Source: Candidatus Omnitrophota bacterium (GTDB lineage: Bacteria > Omnitrophota > Gorgyraeia > Gorgyraeales > Gorgyraeaceae). Taken from it: DNA of 36,911 nucleotides. Numbering within the stretch: position 1 is the stretch's first letter; every line of letters begins with the position of its first letter. The notes below the pieces were generated by a model, which saw only the letters and a list, made by a program, of their open reading frames with translations, had not been told where the DNA came from and did not search any database. Made by a program: the position numbers and the translations under genes. Positions 24,915 through 31,842 of this stretch are shown here, one piece after another. Where the stretch lies: the NCBI GenBank assembly GCA_030691625.1, contig JAUYDX010000022.1:1-36911 (forward strand), given 5' to 3'.

Positions 24915-24943
24915 TTGACAAATTATTTAAATGATACTAATAT
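24915..24943 (+). promoter_or_regulatory. Promoter of the Rrf2/Hcp/FprA operon
   Basis: TTGACA (24915-24920), 17 bases, then TAATAT (24938-24943). Transcription should start near 24950, giving a leader of about 17 bases before the Rrf2 ATG. The -10 box lies inside a palindromic operator. Confidence 0.75.
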
Positions 24944-24950
24944 AGTATCA
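24932..24950. promoter_or_regulatory. Putative Rrf2 operator, site 1
   Basis: TGATACTAATATAGTATCA is a perfect 7-bp inverted repeat around a 5-base centre, covering the -10 box of the regulator's own promoter, the usual place for autorepression. Its 17-bp core differs at only two bases from the palindrome at 14761-14777 in front of the PHP-kinase/Tpx/Kor operon. Confidence 0.7.
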
Positions 24951-24966: not shown

Positions 24967-25377
24967 ATGAGGTTTATAACGAGGGATACAGATTACGCGT
25001 TGAGGGCCATGATACTAATGGCCAGGGCTTTAAGGTATAAAGATAAGAAGGTTATTAGTGTGGAGGATATAGTTTCCGGAGAAAAGCTCCCTAAGGTATT
25101 CTTGAGGAGGATACTGCAGAAGCTGGCTGAGAAAAAAATACTCTCATCTTATAAAGGCAAGGGCGGCGGGTTTTCATTTCTGATCTCTCCGGAGAAAATA
25201 AGCCTGGCTGATGTGATCAAGGTATTTCAGGGTGAGATAGACCTTACAAACTGTTTTCTTAAAGGAAAGGTTTGCCCGAACAGGCCCGAATGCAGGGTAA
25301 GAGAAAAGATAAAGGCGATAAGTTTAAGGGTTGTAAAAGATATGGACAATATAACCATAGAAGAGATGTCTGAATAG
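24967..25377 (+). CDS. Rrf2-family Fe-S transcription regulator
   Basis: This 136-residue protein has the Rrf2 winged helix (RFITRDTDYALRAMILMARA, then LPKVFLRRILQKLAEKKILS and the KGKGGGFSFL wing) and three cysteines, C96, C103 and C109 (C-X6-C-X5-C), which can hold an Fe-S cluster as in NsrR and IscR. It controls genes in response to NO, O2 or Fe-S status. The operon it heads encodes Hcp, a flavodiiron protein and rubrerythrin, which favours an NsrR-like or oxidative-stress role. Ribosome site aaaggaag. Confidence 0.92.
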   Translation: MRFITRDTDYALRAMILMARALRYKDKKVISVEDIVSGEKLPKVFLRRILQKLAEKKILSSYKGKGGGFSFLISPEKISLADVIKVFQGEIDLTNCFLKGKVCPNRPECRVREKIKAISLRVVKDMDNITIEEMSE

Positions 25378-25385
25378 GGGTAGAT

Positions 25386-26099
25386 GTGGCGAAACGTAAA
25401 ATAGTCAAGATAGACGAGGGAAAATGTACCGGTTGCGGGCTTTGTATCCCTAACTGCGCAGAAGGCGCGCTTCAGATAGTAGGCGGCAAGGCAAGGCTTG
25501 TAAAGGATATTTACTGCGATGGACTGGGCGCCTGCCTGGGGCATTGCCCTGAAGGCGCTATTACTATTGAAGAGAGAGGCGCAAAGGAATTTGACGAAGA
25601 TGCCACAAAAAAACATCTGGAGGAGATGAAAAATAAAGAGGAGAAGAAATTACCATGCGGATGCCCGGGAACAGCGGTAAGAGAAATAAAAATACAAGGG
25701 ACAGGAGACATGGGGCAAGGAAAAACAAAAACCAGTTATGAGCTTATAAACTGGCCGGTGCAGCTTAAGCTTGTACCCCCAGACGCGCCGTATTTTAAAA
25801 ACGCGGATTTACTGATAGCGGCTGATTGCGTGGGATTTTCATGTCCTGATTTTCACAGGGATATGTTGAGCAGAAAGCCGCTTATCATATGCTGCCCTAA
25901 GCTTGATGACGCTGAATTGTATATAAAAAAGCTTGCCCAGATTTTTAGAATCAACAGCCTGAAAAGCGTGACTGTGGCGCATATGGAGGTGCCATGCTGT
26001 TTTGGGTTGAGCCAGATAGTGAGCGAGGCCTTGAAATTATCAGGCGCTAAGATACCTTTAAAAGAGATTACAATAGGCATTCAGGGGGATGTGAAATGA
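25386..26099 (+). CDS. Dicluster ferredoxin-domain protein
   Basis: This 237-residue protein has two [4Fe-4S] motifs near the N-terminus: CTGCGLCIPNC and, after an insertion, CDGLGACLGHC with PEGAI. After a charged linker (DEDATKKHLEEMKNKEEKK) and CGCPG, the C-terminal half has further cysteines (ADCVGFSCPDFH, ICCPKLDD, EVPCCFGL). This layout is common in proteins annotated as 4Fe-4S ferredoxin beside Hcp in anaerobes. It probably delivers electrons to Hcp. GTG start with an aggggt site; the next gene overlaps by 4 bases. Confidence 0.88.
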   Translation: MAKRKIVKIDEGKCTGCGLCIPNCAEGALQIVGGKARLVKDIYCDGLGACLGHCPEGAITIEERGAKEFDEDATKKHLEEMKNKEEKKLPCGCPGTAVREIKIQGTGDMGQGKTKTSYELINWPVQLKLVPPDAPYFKNADLLIAADCVGFSCPDFHRDMLSRKPLIICCPKLDDAELYIKKLAQIFRINSLKSVTVAHMEVPCCFGLSQIVSEALKLSGAKIPLKEITIGIQGDVK

Positions 26100-26338
26100 G
26101 TTTTTTTGACGGGTGTCCCGGATCCAAAAGGATCAGGGAGCCTTTTCCTGAGAATATAAGGTGCGCGTGCGGCAAAGATATAGAGATATGGTCTGACGAG
26201 GCGGAGACTATATGCCCTTTTTGCAAACAAAAAGCGCGCAGGTGTATGCCTGGCTCATGCCTGGACTGGTGCAAGATGGCAAAGGAATGCATCGGCCCGG
26301 AGAAATTTGACAAATATAAAAAACATAAAGGGGGTTGA
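26096..26338 (+). CDS. Small Cys-rich protein, unknown
   Basis: This 80-residue protein has nine cysteines in pairs or isolated positions: C7, CAC, CPFC, CMPGSC, WC and EC. It begins FFDGCPGSKRIREPFP. The arrangement could bind zinc or an Fe-S cluster; I do not recognise the family. It overlaps the ferredoxin gene (ATGA) and ends one base before hcp, so the three are translated together. It looks like an accessory protein of the ferredoxin-Hcp pair. Confidence 0.78.
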   Translation: MSFFDGCPGSKRIREPFPENIRCACGKDIEIWSDEAETICPFCKQKARRCMPGSCLDWCKMAKECIGPEKFDKYKKHKGG

Positions 26339-26339
26339 C

Positions 26340-27632
26340 ATGTTTTGTTATCAGTGCGAACAGACAGCTGGCGGAACAGGATGCACGAGGATCGGGGTTT
26401 GCGGCAAAAATGAGGACATCCAGAGCCTTCAGGACACGCTTTTATTCGGATTAAAAGGCATTGCCGCGTACGCGTATCACGCAAGGGAATTAGGCGCCAT
26501 AGATAAGGAAGTGGACGCCTTTATGCACGAGGCGCTTTTTAAGACAGTCACAAACGTGAGTTTTGACTTAAACCAGTATATCGAGCTGGTTTTAAAGTGC
26601 GGCTATATCAATATAAAGGTAATGGAGCTTCTGGATAAGGCCCATACCGAGAAGTTCGGTAACCCTGTGCCTACAGAAGTTGAGACAGGCACCAGAAAAG
26701 GCCCTGGTATAATTATAACCGGCCACGACCTTCTGGACCTGTATGAATTATTGAAACAGACAGAAGGCACTGGAGTGAATGTTTATACCCACGGCGAAAT
26801 GCTTCCGGCCCACGGATACCCGGAGCTTAAAAAATTCAAACACCTGGCAGGTAATTACGGAGGGGCGTGGCAGGAGCAGAAAAAGGAATTTAGAGATTTT
26901 CCAGGCGTCATTCTGGCGACTACAAACTGCGTCCTGATACCCCCGGAAAATACTTATCTAGATAGATTATTTACAATAGGTATAACAGGCGTTAGTGGAT
27001 CAAGGCGCATACAGGACAGGAAGGATTTCAGCGAACTTATTAAAAAGGCTAAGAGCCTGCCTGGGTTACCTGAGGCGCCGGGTAAAAAGATAATGACAGG
27101 ATTCCATCATACAGCTGTCCTGGGCCTGGCTGATAAAGTTATAGGAGCTGTAAAATCAGGAAAAATAAAGCATTTCTTTCTGATAGGAGGATGCGATGGC
27201 GCAAAAGCAGGCAGGAATTATTACACGGAGTTTGCGGAGATGGTACCCAAGGATTGCGTGATACTTACGCTTGCGTGCGGGAAATACCGTTTCAATAAAC
27301 TTGATTTCGGAGATATAGACGGTATCCCTAGACTGATAGACGTGGGCCAGTGCAATAACGCGTATTCAGCCATAAAGATCGCAGAGGCACTGGCAGGCGC
27401 TTTTAAGACAGACGTGAACGGCCTGCCTTTGACCCTGGTCCTGTCGTGGTTTGAGCAGAAAGCAGTTGCGATTCTCCTGAGTTTATTGTATCTTAATATT
27501 AAAGGTATATACATTGGCCCTACGCCGCCCGCGTTCCTGACAAAGAATGTTTTTAGCGTGCTTCAGGAAAAATTTGATTTGAGATTGATCACCAACCCTA
27601 AAGACGATATTGCTAAAGTATTGAAAACCTGA
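26340..27632 (+). CDS. hcp: Hybrid-cluster protein (hydroxylamine reductase), short form
   Basis: This 430-residue protein starts with the Fe-S ligands C3, C6, C15 and C21 (CX2CX8CX5C), the anaerobe-type N-terminal cluster. Hybrid-cluster ligands are visible in TTNCVLIPP, GGCDGAKAGR, LACGKYRFN and VGQCNNAYSA. At 430 residues it is about 110 shorter than the usual form, lacking the second helical region, as in the archaeal/thermophile class. It reduces NO and hydroxylamine, or acts as an S-nitrosylase in some bacteria. ATG 26340 is right for the Cys motif, with aaaggggg before it. Confidence 0.94.
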   Translation: MFCYQCEQTAGGTGCTRIGVCGKNEDIQSLQDTLLFGLKGIAAYAYHARELGAIDKEVDAFMHEALFKTVTNVSFDLNQYIELVLKCGYINIKVMELLDKAHTEKFGNPVPTEVETGTRKGPGIIITGHDLLDLYELLKQTEGTGVNVYTHGEMLPAHGYPELKKFKHLAGNYGGAWQEQKKEFRDFPGVILATTNCVLIPPENTYLDRLFTIGITGVSGSRRIQDRKDFSELIKKAKSLPGLPEAPGKKIMTGFHHTAVLGLADKVIGAVKSGKIKHFFLIGGCDGAKAGRNYYTEFAEMVPKDCVILTLACGKYRFNKLDFGDIDGIPRLIDVGQCNNAYSAIKIAEALAGAFKTDVNGLPLTLVLSWFEQKAVAILLSLLYLNIKGIYIGPTPPAFLTKNVFSVLQEKFDLRLITNPKDDIAKVLKT

Positions 27633-27636
27633 AATA

Positions 27637-27671
27637 AACCTCGCAGGTTGCCAAAGGCAACCTGCGAGGTT
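27637..27671 (+). repeat. Intercistronic hairpin, family B copy 2
   Basis: A perfect 16-bp stem has arm AACCTCGCAGGTTGCC and loop AAA. Each arm is itself a palindrome (AACCT-CGC-AGGTT). It begins 5 bases after the hcp stop and ends 11 bases before the flavin reductase ATG. Compared with copies 1 and 4 the unit changed from AACTT to AACCT in all four quarter-sites. Confidence 0.9.
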
Positions 27672-27682
27672 GGGGTGGTTAT

Positions 27683-28375
27683 ATGGATCCGAATGTCCTG
27701 CATAATATAGGCTATGGCATGTATATAATAAGTTCCAGTAAAGAGGATTTACTTAACGGCCAGATAGCGAATACGCTGTTCCAGATAACGAGCGAGCCTG
27801 TTACAATGGCTGTGAGTATAAATAAGAAGAATCTTACGCATGAGTATATAGAATCGAGCAAGAGGTTTAGCGTATCGGTGCTTTCCGAGGACGCGCCCTT
27901 GAGCTTTATAGGCAAGTTCGGATTCAAATCAGGCAGGTCTGAGGATAAATTCAAGGATACAAAATTTATAAAACTTGATTCAGGATGTCCTGTTGTTTTA
28001 GACAACGCGTTGTGCTATCTGGAAGCGGAGGTAATAAACCGGTTCGATTGCGGCACACACACACTTTTTCTGGGCAGTATGACGGACTCTAAGATATTGA
28101 AGACAGGTAGGCCTATGACGTATGATTATTATCACCAGGTAAAGCACGGCATAACGCCTGAGTCAGCGCCTACATTTATTAAAAAAGAAGCTGGGCAAAT
28201 CAAAGGAGTAAATATGCAAAAATACAGATGTACAGTGTGCGGTTATATATATGATCCGGCTATAGGAGATCCTGATGGCGGGATAAAACCGGGCACGAGG
28301 TTCGAGGATATCCCTGATTCCTGGGTTTGTCCTGTGTGCGGGGCAAAGAAGATAGAATTTGTTAAAACCGCGTAG
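27683..28375 (+). CDS. Flavin reductase-rubredoxin fusion (high molecular weight rubredoxin type)
   Basis: This 230-residue protein has two domains. Residues 1 to about 165 are a flavin reductase split barrel ([28 protein letters not shown]-like strands, [19 protein letters not shown]). Residues about 178-230 are a rubredoxin with [10 protein letters not shown] and CPVCGAKK. This matches Hrb of Moorella, which passes NADH electrons to a flavodiiron protein. The flavodiiron gene follows directly here. A ribosome site and ATG lie between the domains, at 28202-28216. The stop codon is inside a family B hairpin. No strong ribosome site for the first ATG. Confidence 0.92.
28214..28375 (+). CDS. 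Possible independently translated rubredoxin (nested in the fusion)
   Basis: Within the fusion gene the sequence aaaggag (28202-28208) precedes an in-frame ATG (28214) by 5 bases. Starting here gives a complete 53-residue rubredoxin beginning [14 protein letters not shown], the normal size and start for a free rubredoxin. The site is stronger than that of the full-length start. Either both forms are made, or this is a trace of two genes that fused. Confidence 0.5.
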
Positions 28376-28400
28376 GTGGCCGAAGGCCTCCTACGCGGTT
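28366..28400 (+). repeat. Intercistronic hairpin, family B copy 3
   Basis: The arms pair at 15 of 16 positions (28366-28381 with 28385-28400), with loop GAA. The left arm encodes the last two residues and stop codon of the fusion protein. The flavodiiron gene starts 11 bases after the right arm. Confidence 0.85.
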
Positions 28401-28411
28401 GGGAAGGCAAT

Positions 28412-29578
28412 ATGAAGGCTTTAGAGATCAAAAAAGGCATATACTGGGTAGGCGCTATAGACTGGGACCTCAGGAATTTTCATGGCTATTCCACGCAGAT
28501 GGGCTCTACGTATAACGCGTATCTCGTTATAGATAAAAAGATCGCGCTTGTGGACACTGTAAAGCATTATAAATTTGACGAAATGCTTGAAAGGATAAAA
28601 AGCGTCATAGACCCATCCAAAATAGATTATATTGTTTCAAATCATACTGAGATGGACCATTCAGGCAGCATCCTGGATATGGCGGATATAGCGAAGAACG
28701 CGGTCATTGTATGCTCTCCGAACGGAGAAAAAGGCCTGAAAAAACATTTTAAGAAAAATTTGAATTTCAAGATCGTGAATACCGGCGATTCTATTAATAT
28801 AGGCGCCAGAAGTTTGAATTTTGTATTGATGCAGATGGTGCATTGGCCTGATTCAATGGCTACTTATATCCCTGAGGATAAATTGTTTCTCCCGAATGAC
28901 GCGTTTGGCCAGCACATCGCGTCCAGCGAAAGATTTGACGATGAGTTCGGATGGGATAGGATAAGATTAGAGGCTGCGAAATACTACGCTAATATAGTCC
29001 TTCCTTACGGCGCTCAGGTGGCTAAAGCGCTTGAGGCTGTCTCAAGTCTTGATATAGATATGATAGCTCCGAGCCACGGCCTGATATGGAGAAGCCATAT
29101 AAAGGATATAATAGAGCTTTATAAAAAATGGGCGCAGAACGCGTGCGAGAAAAAGGCTGTTATTGTATATGACACCATGTGGCATAGCACTGAAAGAATG
29201 GCGTATGCGATAAAGGATGTCTTTGAAGAAAAAAGTATCCCGTGCGAAATAAGAAATCTAGCGGCTAGCCACATATCAGATGTTATGACATCTGTCCTAG
29301 ACGCGAAATATATATGCGTGGGTTCCCCGACTTTGAATAACGGAGTTTTGCCGACTGTTTCCGCGTTCTTGACTTACCTGAAAGGACTTGCGCCTAAAAA
29401 CAGGATCGGCATTGCGTTCGGGTCTTTTGGCTGGGGAGGCCAGAGCATAGGCGATATAGAAAATATTCTCGAATCAGCTAAATTTGAATTGCCAATTAAA
29501 GGGCTAAAGGTACAATGGGTGCCTGACGATAAGGAATTAGACGAACTAAAAAATAAAATAAGGGAGGTAGTAAAATGA
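28412..29578 (+). CDS. fprA: Flavodiiron protein (FprA type)
   Basis: This 388-residue protein is a class A flavodiiron protein. The metallo-beta-lactamase-like domain has H78-x-E80-x-D82-H83 (SNHTEMDHSGS), VHWPDSMATY, an Asp in LPNDAFGQH and the His in APSHGLIWR. A flavodoxin domain follows from about residue 250 (VIVYDTMWHSTERMAYAI, then SPTLNNG). It reduces O2 to water and/or NO to N2O with electrons from rubredoxin. Flanked by a Hrb-like donor upstream and rubrerythrin downstream (4-base overlap). ATG 28412 follows a ggaaggc site. Confidence 0.95.
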   Translation: MKALEIKKGIYWVGAIDWDLRNFHGYSTQMGSTYNAYLVIDKKIALVDTVKHYKFDEMLERIKSVIDPSKIDYIVSNHTEMDHSGSILDMADIAKNAVIVCSPNGEKGLKKHFKKNLNFKIVNTGDSINIGARSLNFVLMQMVHWPDSMATYIPEDKLFLPNDAFGQHIASSERFDDEFGWDRIRLEAAKYYANIVLPYGAQVAKALEAVSSLDIDMIAPSHGLIWRSHIKDIIELYKKWAQNACEKKAVIVYDTMWHSTERMAYAIKDVFEEKSIPCEIRNLAASHISDVMTSVLDAKYICVGSPTLNNGVLPTVSAFLTYLKGLAPKNRIGIAFGSFGWGGQSIGDIENILESAKFELPIKGLKVQWVPDDKELDELKNKIREVVK

Positions 29579-30147
29579 AGATGAAAGGAAGCCAGACAGA
29601 AAAAAATCTTCTCGCGGCGTTCGCGGGAGAATCCCAGGCAAGGAACCGCTACACGTATTTCGCGAGCGTGGCGAAAAAAGAAGGCTATGAGCAGATATCA
29701 GCTATATTTTTAGAAACAGCTGAGAATGAAAAAGAGCACGCGAAAAGATTTTTCAAATTACTCGAAGGCGGAGACGTGGAAATAACCGCGGCTTATCCCG
29801 CGGGAGTTATAGGAAATACCGCCGCAAACCTCAAGGCCGCCGCAGAAGGAGAACAGCTCGAATGGACCAAGCTTTATAAGGGTTTTGAGGACGTCGCGCG
29901 CAAGGAAGGTTTTACAGAAGCCGCTGACCAATTTAAAGAGATAGCTATGGTTGAAGTAGAGCACGAAAAAAGATACCGCAAGTTTCTAAAAAATGTCAAA
30001 GAAAAAGCCGTGTTTAAAAGAGAAAAGACCATTAAATGGAAATGCCGTAATTGCGGCCGTGTCTATGAGGGTGCGGAAGCGCCCGAGAAGTGTCCTACAT
30101 GCGATCATCCTCAGGCATATTACGAACTTCTGGGAGAAAATTATTGA
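29575..30147 (+). CDS. rbr: Rubrerythrin
   Basis: This 190-residue protein has an N-terminal ferritin-like diiron domain (AAFAGESQARNRYTYFA, ETAENEKEHAKRFFKLLEGG, then AMVEVEHEKRYRKFL). The C-terminal rubredoxin domain has CRNCGRVYEG and CPTCDHPQAYY. It reduces H2O2 to water using rubredoxin electrons. Its ATG overlaps the flavodiiron stop (ATGA), with a gggagg site 7 bases before. The length is typical. Confidence 0.96.
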   Translation: MKMKGSQTEKNLLAAFAGESQARNRYTYFASVAKKEGYEQISAIFLETAENEKEHAKRFFKLLEGGDVEITAAYPAGVIGNTAANLKAAAEGEQLEWTKLYKGFEDVARKEGFTEAADQFKEIAMVEVEHEKRYRKFLKNVKEKAVFKREKTIKWKCRNCGRVYEGAEAPEKCPTCDHPQAYYELLGENY

Positions 30148-30149
30148 TC

Positions 30150-30725
30150 ATGAAGGTATTCGGCATAAGCGCTAGCCCCAGGATAAACGGCAATACAGAC
30201 CTGCTTCTGGATAAGGTTCTACAGGGCGCCAGCAGTAAAGGCGCTGACACGGAAAAAATTGTCCTTAATAAGCTTAAGTTTGTCCCGTGCCAGGAATGCG
30301 AAGAAATGGATGATAGCGGCGGGTGCCTGGTAAATGACGATATGCAGGCAGTATACAAGAAGCTAAAAGAGGCTGACGCTATTGTGCTGGCCTCGCCTGT
30401 ATTCTTTGGAAGCCTTAGCGCCCAATCAAAGATGATGATAGATAGGTTCCAGTGCGCGTGGAGGGCAAAGTATATATTGAAAAAAGGCAATGGCTATAAA
30501 AAAATACCAGGGATATTTATCTCCGTAGAGGGTTCCAAACGGAAAGATTTTTTTCAAAACGCGAAGTCAATTGTCAGAAATTTCTTTGCCACAATTAATA
30601 CGTCTTATAAATATGAGCTTTTCTGCCCCGGTATAGAGACCAAGGGAGATATACTCGCAAGCCGCGGATGCCTGAAAAAGGCCTTTGACATTGGCGCGAA
30701 ACTGGTATTGCTAAAAAAGGAGTAA
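30150..30725 (+). CDS. NADPH-dependent FMN reductase / iron-sulfur flavoprotein-like
   Basis: This 191-residue flavodoxin-fold protein starts VFGISASPRINGNTDLLLD (FMN phosphate loop). A Cys cluster C-Q-E-C then C after eight residues (PCQECEEMDDSGGC) follows at about residues 52-64, and ASPVFFGSLSAQSKMMIDR is the second FMN loop. The Cys cluster could hold an Fe-S cluster, as in archaeal and clostridial iron-sulfur flavoproteins, but has three rather than four close cysteines. It probably shuttles electrons in the stress operon. ATG 30150 lies 2 bases after the rubrerythrin stop. Confidence 0.85.
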   Translation: MKVFGISASPRINGNTDLLLDKVLQGASSKGADTEKIVLNKLKFVPCQECEEMDDSGGCLVNDDMQAVYKKLKEADAIVLASPVFFGSLSAQSKMMIDRFQCAWRAKYILKKGNGYKKIPGIFISVEGSKRKDFFQNAKSIVRNFFATINTSYKYELFCPGIETKGDILASRGCLKKAFDIGAKLVLLKKE

Positions 30726-30727
30726 TT

Positions 30728-30964
30728 ATGCCTAATGTAAAGCTATATTCAACTTCAACATGCCATTATTGCGCCATGGCAAAGGAATTTTTGAAAAAAA
30801 ACAACATCCAGTATGAAAATTTGGATGTCGGAATGAATCGCGAGGCAGGAAAAGAAATGGTAAATAAATCAGGCCAGATGGGAGTGCCTGTCCTGGATAT
30901 AGACGGCGAGATAATCGTGGGTTTTGACAAAGACGCCATATCCAAGGCCCTGGATTTAACCTAA
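30728..30964 (+). CDS. Glutaredoxin-like protein (NrdH/Cp9 type)
   Basis: This 78-residue protein has the pair C-H-Y-C (STCHYCAMAKEFLKKNNI) and the family end MGVPVLDIDGEIIVGFD with cis-Pro. Such proteins accept electrons from TrxB-like flavoproteins rather than glutathione. In Clostridium pasteurianum, Cp9 of this type pairs with the AhpF-like Cp34, and the reductase at 20019 is a good match for that role here. Start 2 bases after the flavoprotein stop, with an aaaggag site. The stop codon touches a family A hairpin. Confidence 0.9.
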   Translation: MPNVKLYSTSTCHYCAMAKEFLKKNNIQYENLDVGMNREAGKEMVNKSGQMGVPVLDIDGEIIVGFDKDAISKALDLT

Positions 30965-31002
30965 CAACTTGACATGGAGACATTGTCTCAATGTCAAGTT
31001 GT
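30964..31002 (+). repeat. Intercistronic hairpin, family A copy 4
   Basis: The arms ACAACTTGACAT (30964-30975) and ATGTCAAGTTGT (30991-31002) pair perfectly. After one G/A mismatch, five pairs close on loop ATT (30982-30984). The left arm begins at the last base of the glutaredoxin-like stop codon. The next gene's ribosome site ggagggg follows directly. Confidence 0.88.
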
Positions 31003-31014
31003 CGGAGGGGATGC

Positions 31015-31644
31015 ATGAAGGATATGCTGGAGTATTACGCTAAAAATAAAACGCAGATAAAAAACAGGCTGAGGGATTTTGAGGACAGCTATAAAAAAGA
31101 CGATAAGCATGTTTTTTCAGAGCTATGTTTCTGCCTCTTGACGCCCCAGGCAGAGGCAGTGGAATGCGATAAGGCGATAAAGGAGCTAAAGAGGACAGGC
31201 CTTCTTTATGAGGGCCATCCAAAGGCTATAAGCCCTTACATCAAAGCGGCAAGATTCCTTAATAAGAAAGCGGAATTCATTGTAAACGCGAGGGGGTTAT
31301 TTAAAAAGAACGGCTGCCTCAGGATAAAAAATTGCATAGACCGGAATGACATATTTAAAACCAGGGAATGGCTCGCAGAAAATATAAAGGGTATGGGCTA
31401 TAAGGAGGCAAGCCATTTTTTAAGGAATATAGGTTTTGGGAAAAATCTCGCGATACTGGATGTGCACATACTCAAGAATCTTAAAAACTGCGGCGTGATA
31501 AACAAAATACCAAAGCACCTTACAAAAAAGGAATATCTGAAAATAGAAAATAAACTTAGGAGTTTTTGTAAAAAGATAAAGATACCAATGGATGAGCTGG
31601 ATCTTTTATTCTGGTCTAAAGAGACAGGGTTTGTGTTTAAATAA
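31015..31644 (+). CDS. N-glycosylase/DNA lyase (Ogg2-type 8-oxoguanine glycosylase)
   Basis: This 209-residue protein has the helix-hairpin-helix-GPD features of archaeal-type Ogg: the helix with FSELCFCLLTPQAEAVEC, the catalytic Lys region MGYKEASHFLRNIGFGKNLA, and the catalytic Asp in ILDVHILKNL. It removes 8-oxoguanine and cuts the abasic site, repairing oxidative damage. This fits its place at the end of an oxidative-stress operon. ATG 31015 has ggagggg 4 bases before it. Its stop is the start of a family B hairpin. Confidence 0.9.
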   Translation: MKDMLEYYAKNKTQIKNRLRDFEDSYKKDDKHVFSELCFCLLTPQAEAVECDKAIKELKRTGLLYEGHPKAISPYIKAARFLNKKAEFIVNARGLFKKNGCLRIKNCIDRNDIFKTREWLAENIKGMGYKEASHFLRNIGFGKNLAILDVHILKNLKNCGVINKIPKHLTKKEYLKIENKLRSFCKKIKIPMDELDLLFWSKETGFVFK

Positions 31645-31677
31645 CTTCGTAAGTTGCCTACGGCAACTTACGAAGTT
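31643..31677 (+). repeat. Intercistronic hairpin, family B copy 4
   Basis: A perfect 16-bp stem (31643-31658 with 31662-31677) has arm AACTTCGTAAGTTGCC and loop TAC. Each arm is a palindrome (AACTT-CGT-AAGTT). The left arm overlaps the glycosylase stop codon. A second small palindrome, GATATTAATATC (31678-31689), follows at once, just before the ribosome site of the next small gene. Confidence 0.88.
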
Positions 31678-31704
31678 GATATTAATATCAGAAAGGAGGG
31701 TATG

Positions 31705-31788
31705 ATGAAAGTAACTATTCATTACATGCTAAGGCCTGTAGCTCACTGCAAAGAGGGCTGCAGTTTTTGCTCCTGGGCACGAGCTTAA
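31705..31788 (+). CDS. 27-residue peptide with CX3CX2C motif
   Basis: The ORF reads MKVTIHYMLRPVAHC, then KEGCSFCSWARA and stop. A strong site, aaggagg (31693-31699), lies 5 bases before ATG 31705; ATG 31702 is also possible. The three cysteines form C-KEG-C-SF-C, exactly the CX3CX-aromatic-C pattern that holds the [4Fe-4S] cluster of radical SAM enzymes, but nothing of that enzyme fold follows. It is the last ORF of the stress operon, 12 bases before a long hairpin. It could be a free cluster-binding peptide, a regulatory leader, or a remnant. No family is recognised. Confidence 0.55.
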   Translation: MKVTIHYMLRPVAHCKEGCSFCSWARA

Positions 31789-31800
31789 ACTACCGCCATG

Positions 31801-31842
31801 AATGGTGCCAGGCACTAAATTATAATAGTGCCTGGCACCATT
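31801..31842. terminator. 17-bp hairpin, probable transcription terminator or REP-like element
   Basis: A perfect 17-bp inverted repeat (31801-31817 with 31826-31842) is built around ATGGTGCCAGGCACT with an A/T-only 8-base loop and is followed by ttttatt. It ends the stress operon 12 bases after the small peptide and lies 13 bases before the GH5 gene. The core GGTGCC-GGCACC type palindrome also resembles REP-like dispersed elements. No second copy is in the window. Confidence 0.6.

Follow-up and report, generated by a model that had tools for sequence, protein, structure and literature searches.

A conserved two-cysteine micropeptide gene of redox-stress regulons with a candidate translation-coupled pseudoknot

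Compact pseudoknots are familiar from viral recoding sites such as the luteovirid frameshift knot and the murine leukaemia virus readthrough knot, and a small pseudoknot also forms the preQ1 class I riboswitch. A different kind of device, built on a cysteine-containing peptide, is the copper-responsive upstream ORF of Bordetella, CruR (DUF2946), a product of about 145 residues in which a CXXC lies 45 residues before a RAPP arrest motif (PMC9426467). Translation of CruR is thought to arrest, and its target downstream is Rho-dependent (PMC9426467). Here we describe a locus that resembles each of these systems in part. It lies in a window of 36,911 nucleotides (the whole stretch analysed, contig JAUYDX010000022.1 of a Candidatus Omnitrophota bacterium), where the gene for a 27-residue peptide, MKVTIHYMLRPVAHCKEGCSFCSWARA, overlaps with its last codons a conserved RNA pseudoknot at 31770-31795 (Table 1).

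Like CruR, the micropeptide is a small protein with a cysteine pair that is found in stress or metal operons, and we infer for it too an arrest at a fixed C-terminal point. Unlike CruR it is only 18-28 residues long, has its CX3C at the stopping point itself, contains no RAPP, is followed by an RNA knot instead and is often found without a downstream target. The CruR/DUF2946 model in Pfam did not match the micropeptide, and we take CruR as one illustration of how such a peptide might act, not as a member of the same family. The knot shares with the compact viral recoding knots an H-type fold of about 26 nt, a short loop 1 and an A-rich loop 3, and its spacing is also similar, as viral recoding knots begin 5-9 nt beyond the codon that occupies the ribosome and this one starts 8 nt past the Cys19 codon or, in phages, 6-8 nt past stop codons. 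It differs from them in having neither a slippery site nor an extended product, in its very invariant sequence and in its occurrence in bacteria and phages. With preQ1 class I it has in common its size, the H-type fold and highly conserved loops, but its position is set by a codon or a stop codon and not by a ribosome-binding site, and no Rfam covariance model matched it in searches that extended to an E value of 5 for the window and of 1 for other copies and viral loci. Our search of the open literature, which took in few subscription papers, found no paper on the peptide or the knot, so that an earlier description is possible. The knot is an unlisted 26-nt pseudoknot, present in many phages and set at a fixed distance from a presumed stopping point of the ribosome, with a candidate role as a device at the end of translation or at the 3' end of mRNA, and the peptide is a candidate thiol/metal or redox factor of anaerobe stress operons.

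A short cysteine peptide and its distribution

An earlier note on this DNA had taken a strong ribosome site and a clean ORF as signs of translation, and both hold up well: nearly all family copies have a strong Shine-Dalgarno sequence (5-6 of 6 positions identical to AGGAGG), the second of the tandem ATGs at 31702 and 31705 is the conserved start, and the ORF is conserved far beyond chance. An order-wide search located the peptide in 14 of the 19 genomes of the window's order. At the level of the class (Omnitrophota) a profile search recovered it from 166 of 384 genomes, representing 125 of 282 genera; these frequencies rule out a chance ORF. Every match listed in a phylum-wide search belongs to the same class. 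A codon-pattern scan of GTDB contigs additionally matched the cultured Firmicutes Desulfofundulus thermobenzoicus and Desulfovirgula thermocuniculi, as well as one metagenome-assembled genome labelled Proteobacteria that may be mislabelled. Subsequent counts gave 62 of 113 genomes in the order of Desulfofundulus and 51 of 398 genomes drawn from its phylum. No convincing copy was found in the plasmids and E. coli genomes scanned. Judged by sequence, the micropeptides form an unannotated family that spans at least two phyla. Two small plasmids of Macrococcoides canis (NZ_CP047364.1 and NZ_CP046366.1) carry weak knot-like matches, at the sequence level only.

Table 1. Coordinates of the micropeptide locus and its redox gene run in the window
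Feature	Position	Strand	Basis or remark
TTGACA box and palindrome TGATAC-N7-GTATCA, before the Rrf2 gene	24915..24950	+	sequence pattern
Redox gene run: Rrf2, ferredoxin, Hcp (prismane), flavin reductase-rubredoxin, flavodiiron protein, rubrerythrin, FMN reductase, glutaredoxin, Ogg	24967..31644	+	
Ogg-HhH 8-oxoguanine DNA glycosylase, upstream neighbour	30991..31644	+	Pfam PF22175, E 1e-57
Shine-Dalgarno sequence AAAGGAGGG	31692..31700	+	read from window sequence
Micropeptide ORF, 27 codons and stop (31786-31788)	31705..31788	+	conserved class-wide
Conserved protein core YMLRPVAHCKEGC, codons 7-19	31723..31761	+	codon-position entropies
Spacer of 8 nt from Cys19 codon to pseudoknot	31762..31769	+	length fixed, sequence mostly free
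Pseudoknot stem 1: CUC 31770-31772 / GAG 31781-31783; fourth pair G31769-C31784	31770..31783	+	
Pseudoknot stem 2: GGGCA 31775-31779 / UACCG 31791-31795	31775..31795	+	3/5 pairs in window

That the locus encodes a short cysteine peptide, as had been proposed from the window alone, is supported by alignment. The core LRPVAHC(K)(E/G)GC shows protein-level selection in alignments of 146-195 copies: in 146 copies, entropy over codons 9-19 is about zero at second positions, low at first positions and mostly about 1-1.9 bits at third positions, C15, G18 and C19 are invariant, and H14, K16 and E17 nearly so. CKGGC is frequent in Firmicutes copies. The distance from the start to Cys19 is 16-20 codons, 19 in most copies, and the residues that follow show no protein-level conservation, with stop codons mostly at codon 20, 22, 24, 26 or 28. 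The conserved motif is HCKxGC, which takes in only the first two of the window's three cysteines. The CX3CX2C (C-KEG-C-SF-C) that the earlier note read as a radical SAM loop is present in the window, and relatives retain the short length and the first two cysteines but not the third: codon 22 encodes Cys in 11 of 195 copies, in 5 of which it lies past the stop codon, and elsewhere it is Ser, Leu, Lys, Val, a stop or others. In the window the third Cys codon is made up of the last spacer bases, TG, and the first base of the pseudoknot stem. Two diverged Firmicutes copies (L514 and L503) have an intact knot and have lost or shifted the second cysteine of the CX3C. The peptide had no match in Pfam and only a chance-level best match in NCBIfam (13.1 bits against a cut-off of 270), and neither peptide nor knot had a match in PHROG or the PDB.

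A pseudoknot at a fixed distance from Cys19

Base-pairing patterns indicate that the region after Cys19 is conserved as RNA and not as protein. Its consensus, GUCC-Y-GGGYA-N-GAC-NN-UAAAC-URCCY, describes a 26-nt H-type pseudoknot with stems GUC/GAC (stem 1) and GGGCA/UGCCC (stem 2), which begins exactly 8 nt past the Cys19 codon in 198 of the 198 copies with a detectable knot. Stem 1 is canonical in 140 of 140 copies, with an outer pair of GC in 123 and CG in 17, the GUC/GAC and CUC/GAG forms representing a compensatory change. Stem 2 is 93% canonical overall in the same 140 copies (84-99% paired over copies), and individual copies carry compensated forms (GGACA/UGUCC, UGAGCA/UGCUCA, UAGACA/UGUCUA, GGGAA/UUCCC and AGCC/GGCU). 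As a control, the partner strand was slid in these copies, which left canonical pairing at 31-43% in stem 2 and at 10-53% in stem 1. We also considered whether the +1 frame is read beyond codon 19, where AVxxPGHxxKLP seemed open, and rejected this because the changes, among them GGGCA/UGCCC becoming GGACA/UGUCC, track base pairing and destroy the +1 residues. For a hairpin within the coding core (GUAGCYC/GGGCUGC) double changes were not found. One genome breaks the 8-nt rule: in L014, around position 1560, a GC-rich hairpin of 26 nt separates the Cys19 codon from an otherwise intact pseudoknot.

The copies were gathered with peptide profiles, so the chromosomal link between peptide and knot is partly by construction, and knot-only searches served as the control for this link. 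With the exact knot pattern, all knots listed in 147 Omnitrophota genomes sit at peptide positions, and those checked in 113 Firmicutes genomes adjoin either the peptide or a diverged version; a reversed control pattern was absent from both sets of genomes. Stops within the knot show neither depletion nor enrichment, codon-22 stops occurring at the rate predicted from base composition. Eight copies without a knot carry a stop as codon 20 and usually have a plain hairpin at about the same place. This codon-20 stop is found in 8 of the 14 copies that fail the knot test versus 11 of the 181 with a knot (Fisher p about 4e-6, computed ignoring the relatedness of the copies). Of the other failing copies, one has lost the knot and has no codon-20 stop (L240), and the rest have weakened or shifted knots. 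On the simplest reading, the working peptide would end at Cys19 and a structure abutting the ribosome there would matter; the ribosome may pause at this point.

Our leading explanation, which we put forward tentatively and build throughout on sequence comparison, is that the locus is a micropeptide gene belonging to redox/metal-stress regulons and that its pseudoknot is coupled to translation. The sequences show protein-level selection on an 18-20 codon peptide that ends in HC(K)(E/G)GC. The knot starts at a constant distance of 8 nt, so that ribosomes translating the gene should reach it at about the time when Cys19 is the last residue added, and the knot may hold or mark the ribosome at this codon and so define the end of the working peptide. 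Either released or held on the ribosome, the peptide may then act through Cys15, Cys19 and His14, possibly as a metal or redox-responsive ligand for the accompanying stress genes. As these three residues are its conserved chemistry, we favour with moderate confidence a thiol, metal or redox function over others. Several observations count against our explanation: phage knots lie behind ordinary stops and beside tRNA genes, stem 2 is weak in the window, Firmicutes neighbours are diverse and the second cysteine is missing from a few copies such as L514.

Knots without the peptide in viruses

The knot alone was found in more than 200 viral contigs, with the exact pattern in at least 120 IMG/VR contigs, and a pattern combining peptide and knot had no viral match. 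Similar sequences occur in named phages of Synechococcus, Moorella, Microbacterium, Corynebacterium and Nostoc, and in a Sigmofec virus (6-kb record). Compensated variants of stem 1 and stem 2 gave 51 and 55 viral matches respectively, while the mismatched control of each gave 0. Viral knots begin 6-8 nt past the stop of the upstream ORF in 36 of 50 distinct copies and in 17 of 41 knots of a second viral set, as compared with 0.9% of random positions, and the genes that end there are unrelated. Some viral knots have a tRNA gene close by, a few to about 15 nt away, with the knot first in L363, L399 and L413 and the tRNA first in L367, L370 and L377, and tRNA processing could leave such knots near an RNA end.

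The position of phage knots behind ordinary stops and beside tRNA genes suggests a role without stalling. The knot could be a general 3' element of mRNA that blocks 3' exonucleases or aids termination and recycling, in which case the peptide would still be functional and would simply own a protected mRNA end. Firmicutes copies would suit such an element, as their stop is often codon 20 or 22, ahead of the knot, with a terminator-like hairpin behind. In most Omnitrophota copies, however, the stop codon lies inside the knot, which a terminating ribosome should then open, and the 8-nt distance is held to the Cys codon and not to the stop. We regard a pure 3' element as a possible but doubtful account of the locus.

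Gene neighbourhood and the remaining alternatives

In the window the micropeptide is the last gene of a redox run that we infer from spacing and strand to be an operon, and the gene that comes next is a cellulase gene. The association with an oxidative/nitrosative-stress operon, already suspected in the earlier note, is borne out by Rrf2, Hcp, flavodiiron protein, rubrerythrin, glutaredoxin and Ogg, and the palindrome ahead of the Rrf2 gene is predicted to be a candidate Rrf2 operator for the operon that ends in the micropeptide. In other Omnitrophota the peptide is often part of an Rrf2 redox operon, as the first gene, after hcp or as the last gene, and a TGATAC/GTATCA palindrome precedes the micropeptide itself in 56 other copies. 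Ogg is directly upstream in 14 copies; further neighbours are Hcp, NifU, CopA, CsoR, YHS and DUF1622-like proteins, where names outside the Pfam-searched clusters come from our own reading of the sequences. Neighbourhoods in Firmicutes are diverse.

Rrf2 follows the peptide directly in 69 of 169 copies, mostly 42-70 nt past Cys19, and 47 of these 69 have a TGATAC-N-GTATCA palindrome ahead of the peptide. This frequent arrangement makes a leader peptide, regulating the next gene (most often Rrf2) in cis by nascent-chain arrest, still a serious rival, and a length of 18-20 codons with the conserved part at the stopping point is typical of arrest leaders. We nevertheless judge a cis leader unlikely, as the window copy closes its redox run, a convergent gene faces the peptide in 8 of 29 Firmicutes copies, and a terminator-like hairpin (L130) or a hairpin with a T run (L294) comes after the peptide in others. 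A trans-acting product fits better than a pure cis leader, given that the place of the gene in the regulon varies and that several copies close a transcript or lie opposite a convergent gene. The Cys-codon leader once suggested for this ORF is also unlikely, because the copies use the two Cys codons freely and many of them lack a dependent gene downstream.

It is improbable, in our estimate, that the knot substitutes for a stop codon. On that reading it would halt the ribosome with Cys19 in the P site, and a peptide with HCKxGC as its exact end would be let go or retained although no stop codon is present, perhaps aided by the Cys15 thiol attacking the ester of the peptidyl-tRNA; if true, this would be a new way of ending or holding translation. 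Programmed frameshifting or stop-codon readthrough driven by the knot appears very unlikely. The 6-8 nt spacing and compact H-type fold do resemble viral recoding stimulators and UGA comes after Cys19 in many Firmicutes copies, but there are no conserved slippery bases, wobble positions are free, codon 20 can be any sense codon, UAG, UGA or UAA, and no long extension follows. In phages the in-frame extension past the stop has a median of 18 codons, too short for readthrough. Selenocysteine at codon 20 was ruled out, as UAG, UAA and many sense codons also come after Cys19. Binding of [4Fe-4S] through a radical SAM-type CX3CX2C loop, suggested by the window's motif and an FeS-rich operon, is barely credible in view of the unconserved third cysteine and chance-level family matches, which likewise rule out a radical SAM remnant: no homologue was found inside any radical SAM protein, and the 27-residue peptide contains no partial TIM barrel and has no significant family match. 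The peptide may still bind a cluster through other ligands. In close relatives the peptide is kept.

The hairpin after the ORF (31801-31842), once cited in support of translation, is not seen behind the ORF in relatives; it is a palindrome (GGTGCCAGGCAC...GTGCCTGGCACC) of a second family that is dispersed elsewhere in the same genome. Three related perfect or near-perfect palindromes of the form AAC...GCC/GGC...GTT lie near gene ends of the redox operon, at 27637-27671, 28366-28400 and 31643-31677, and the last of these recurs on many contigs of the genome and is thus probably a REP-like repeat.
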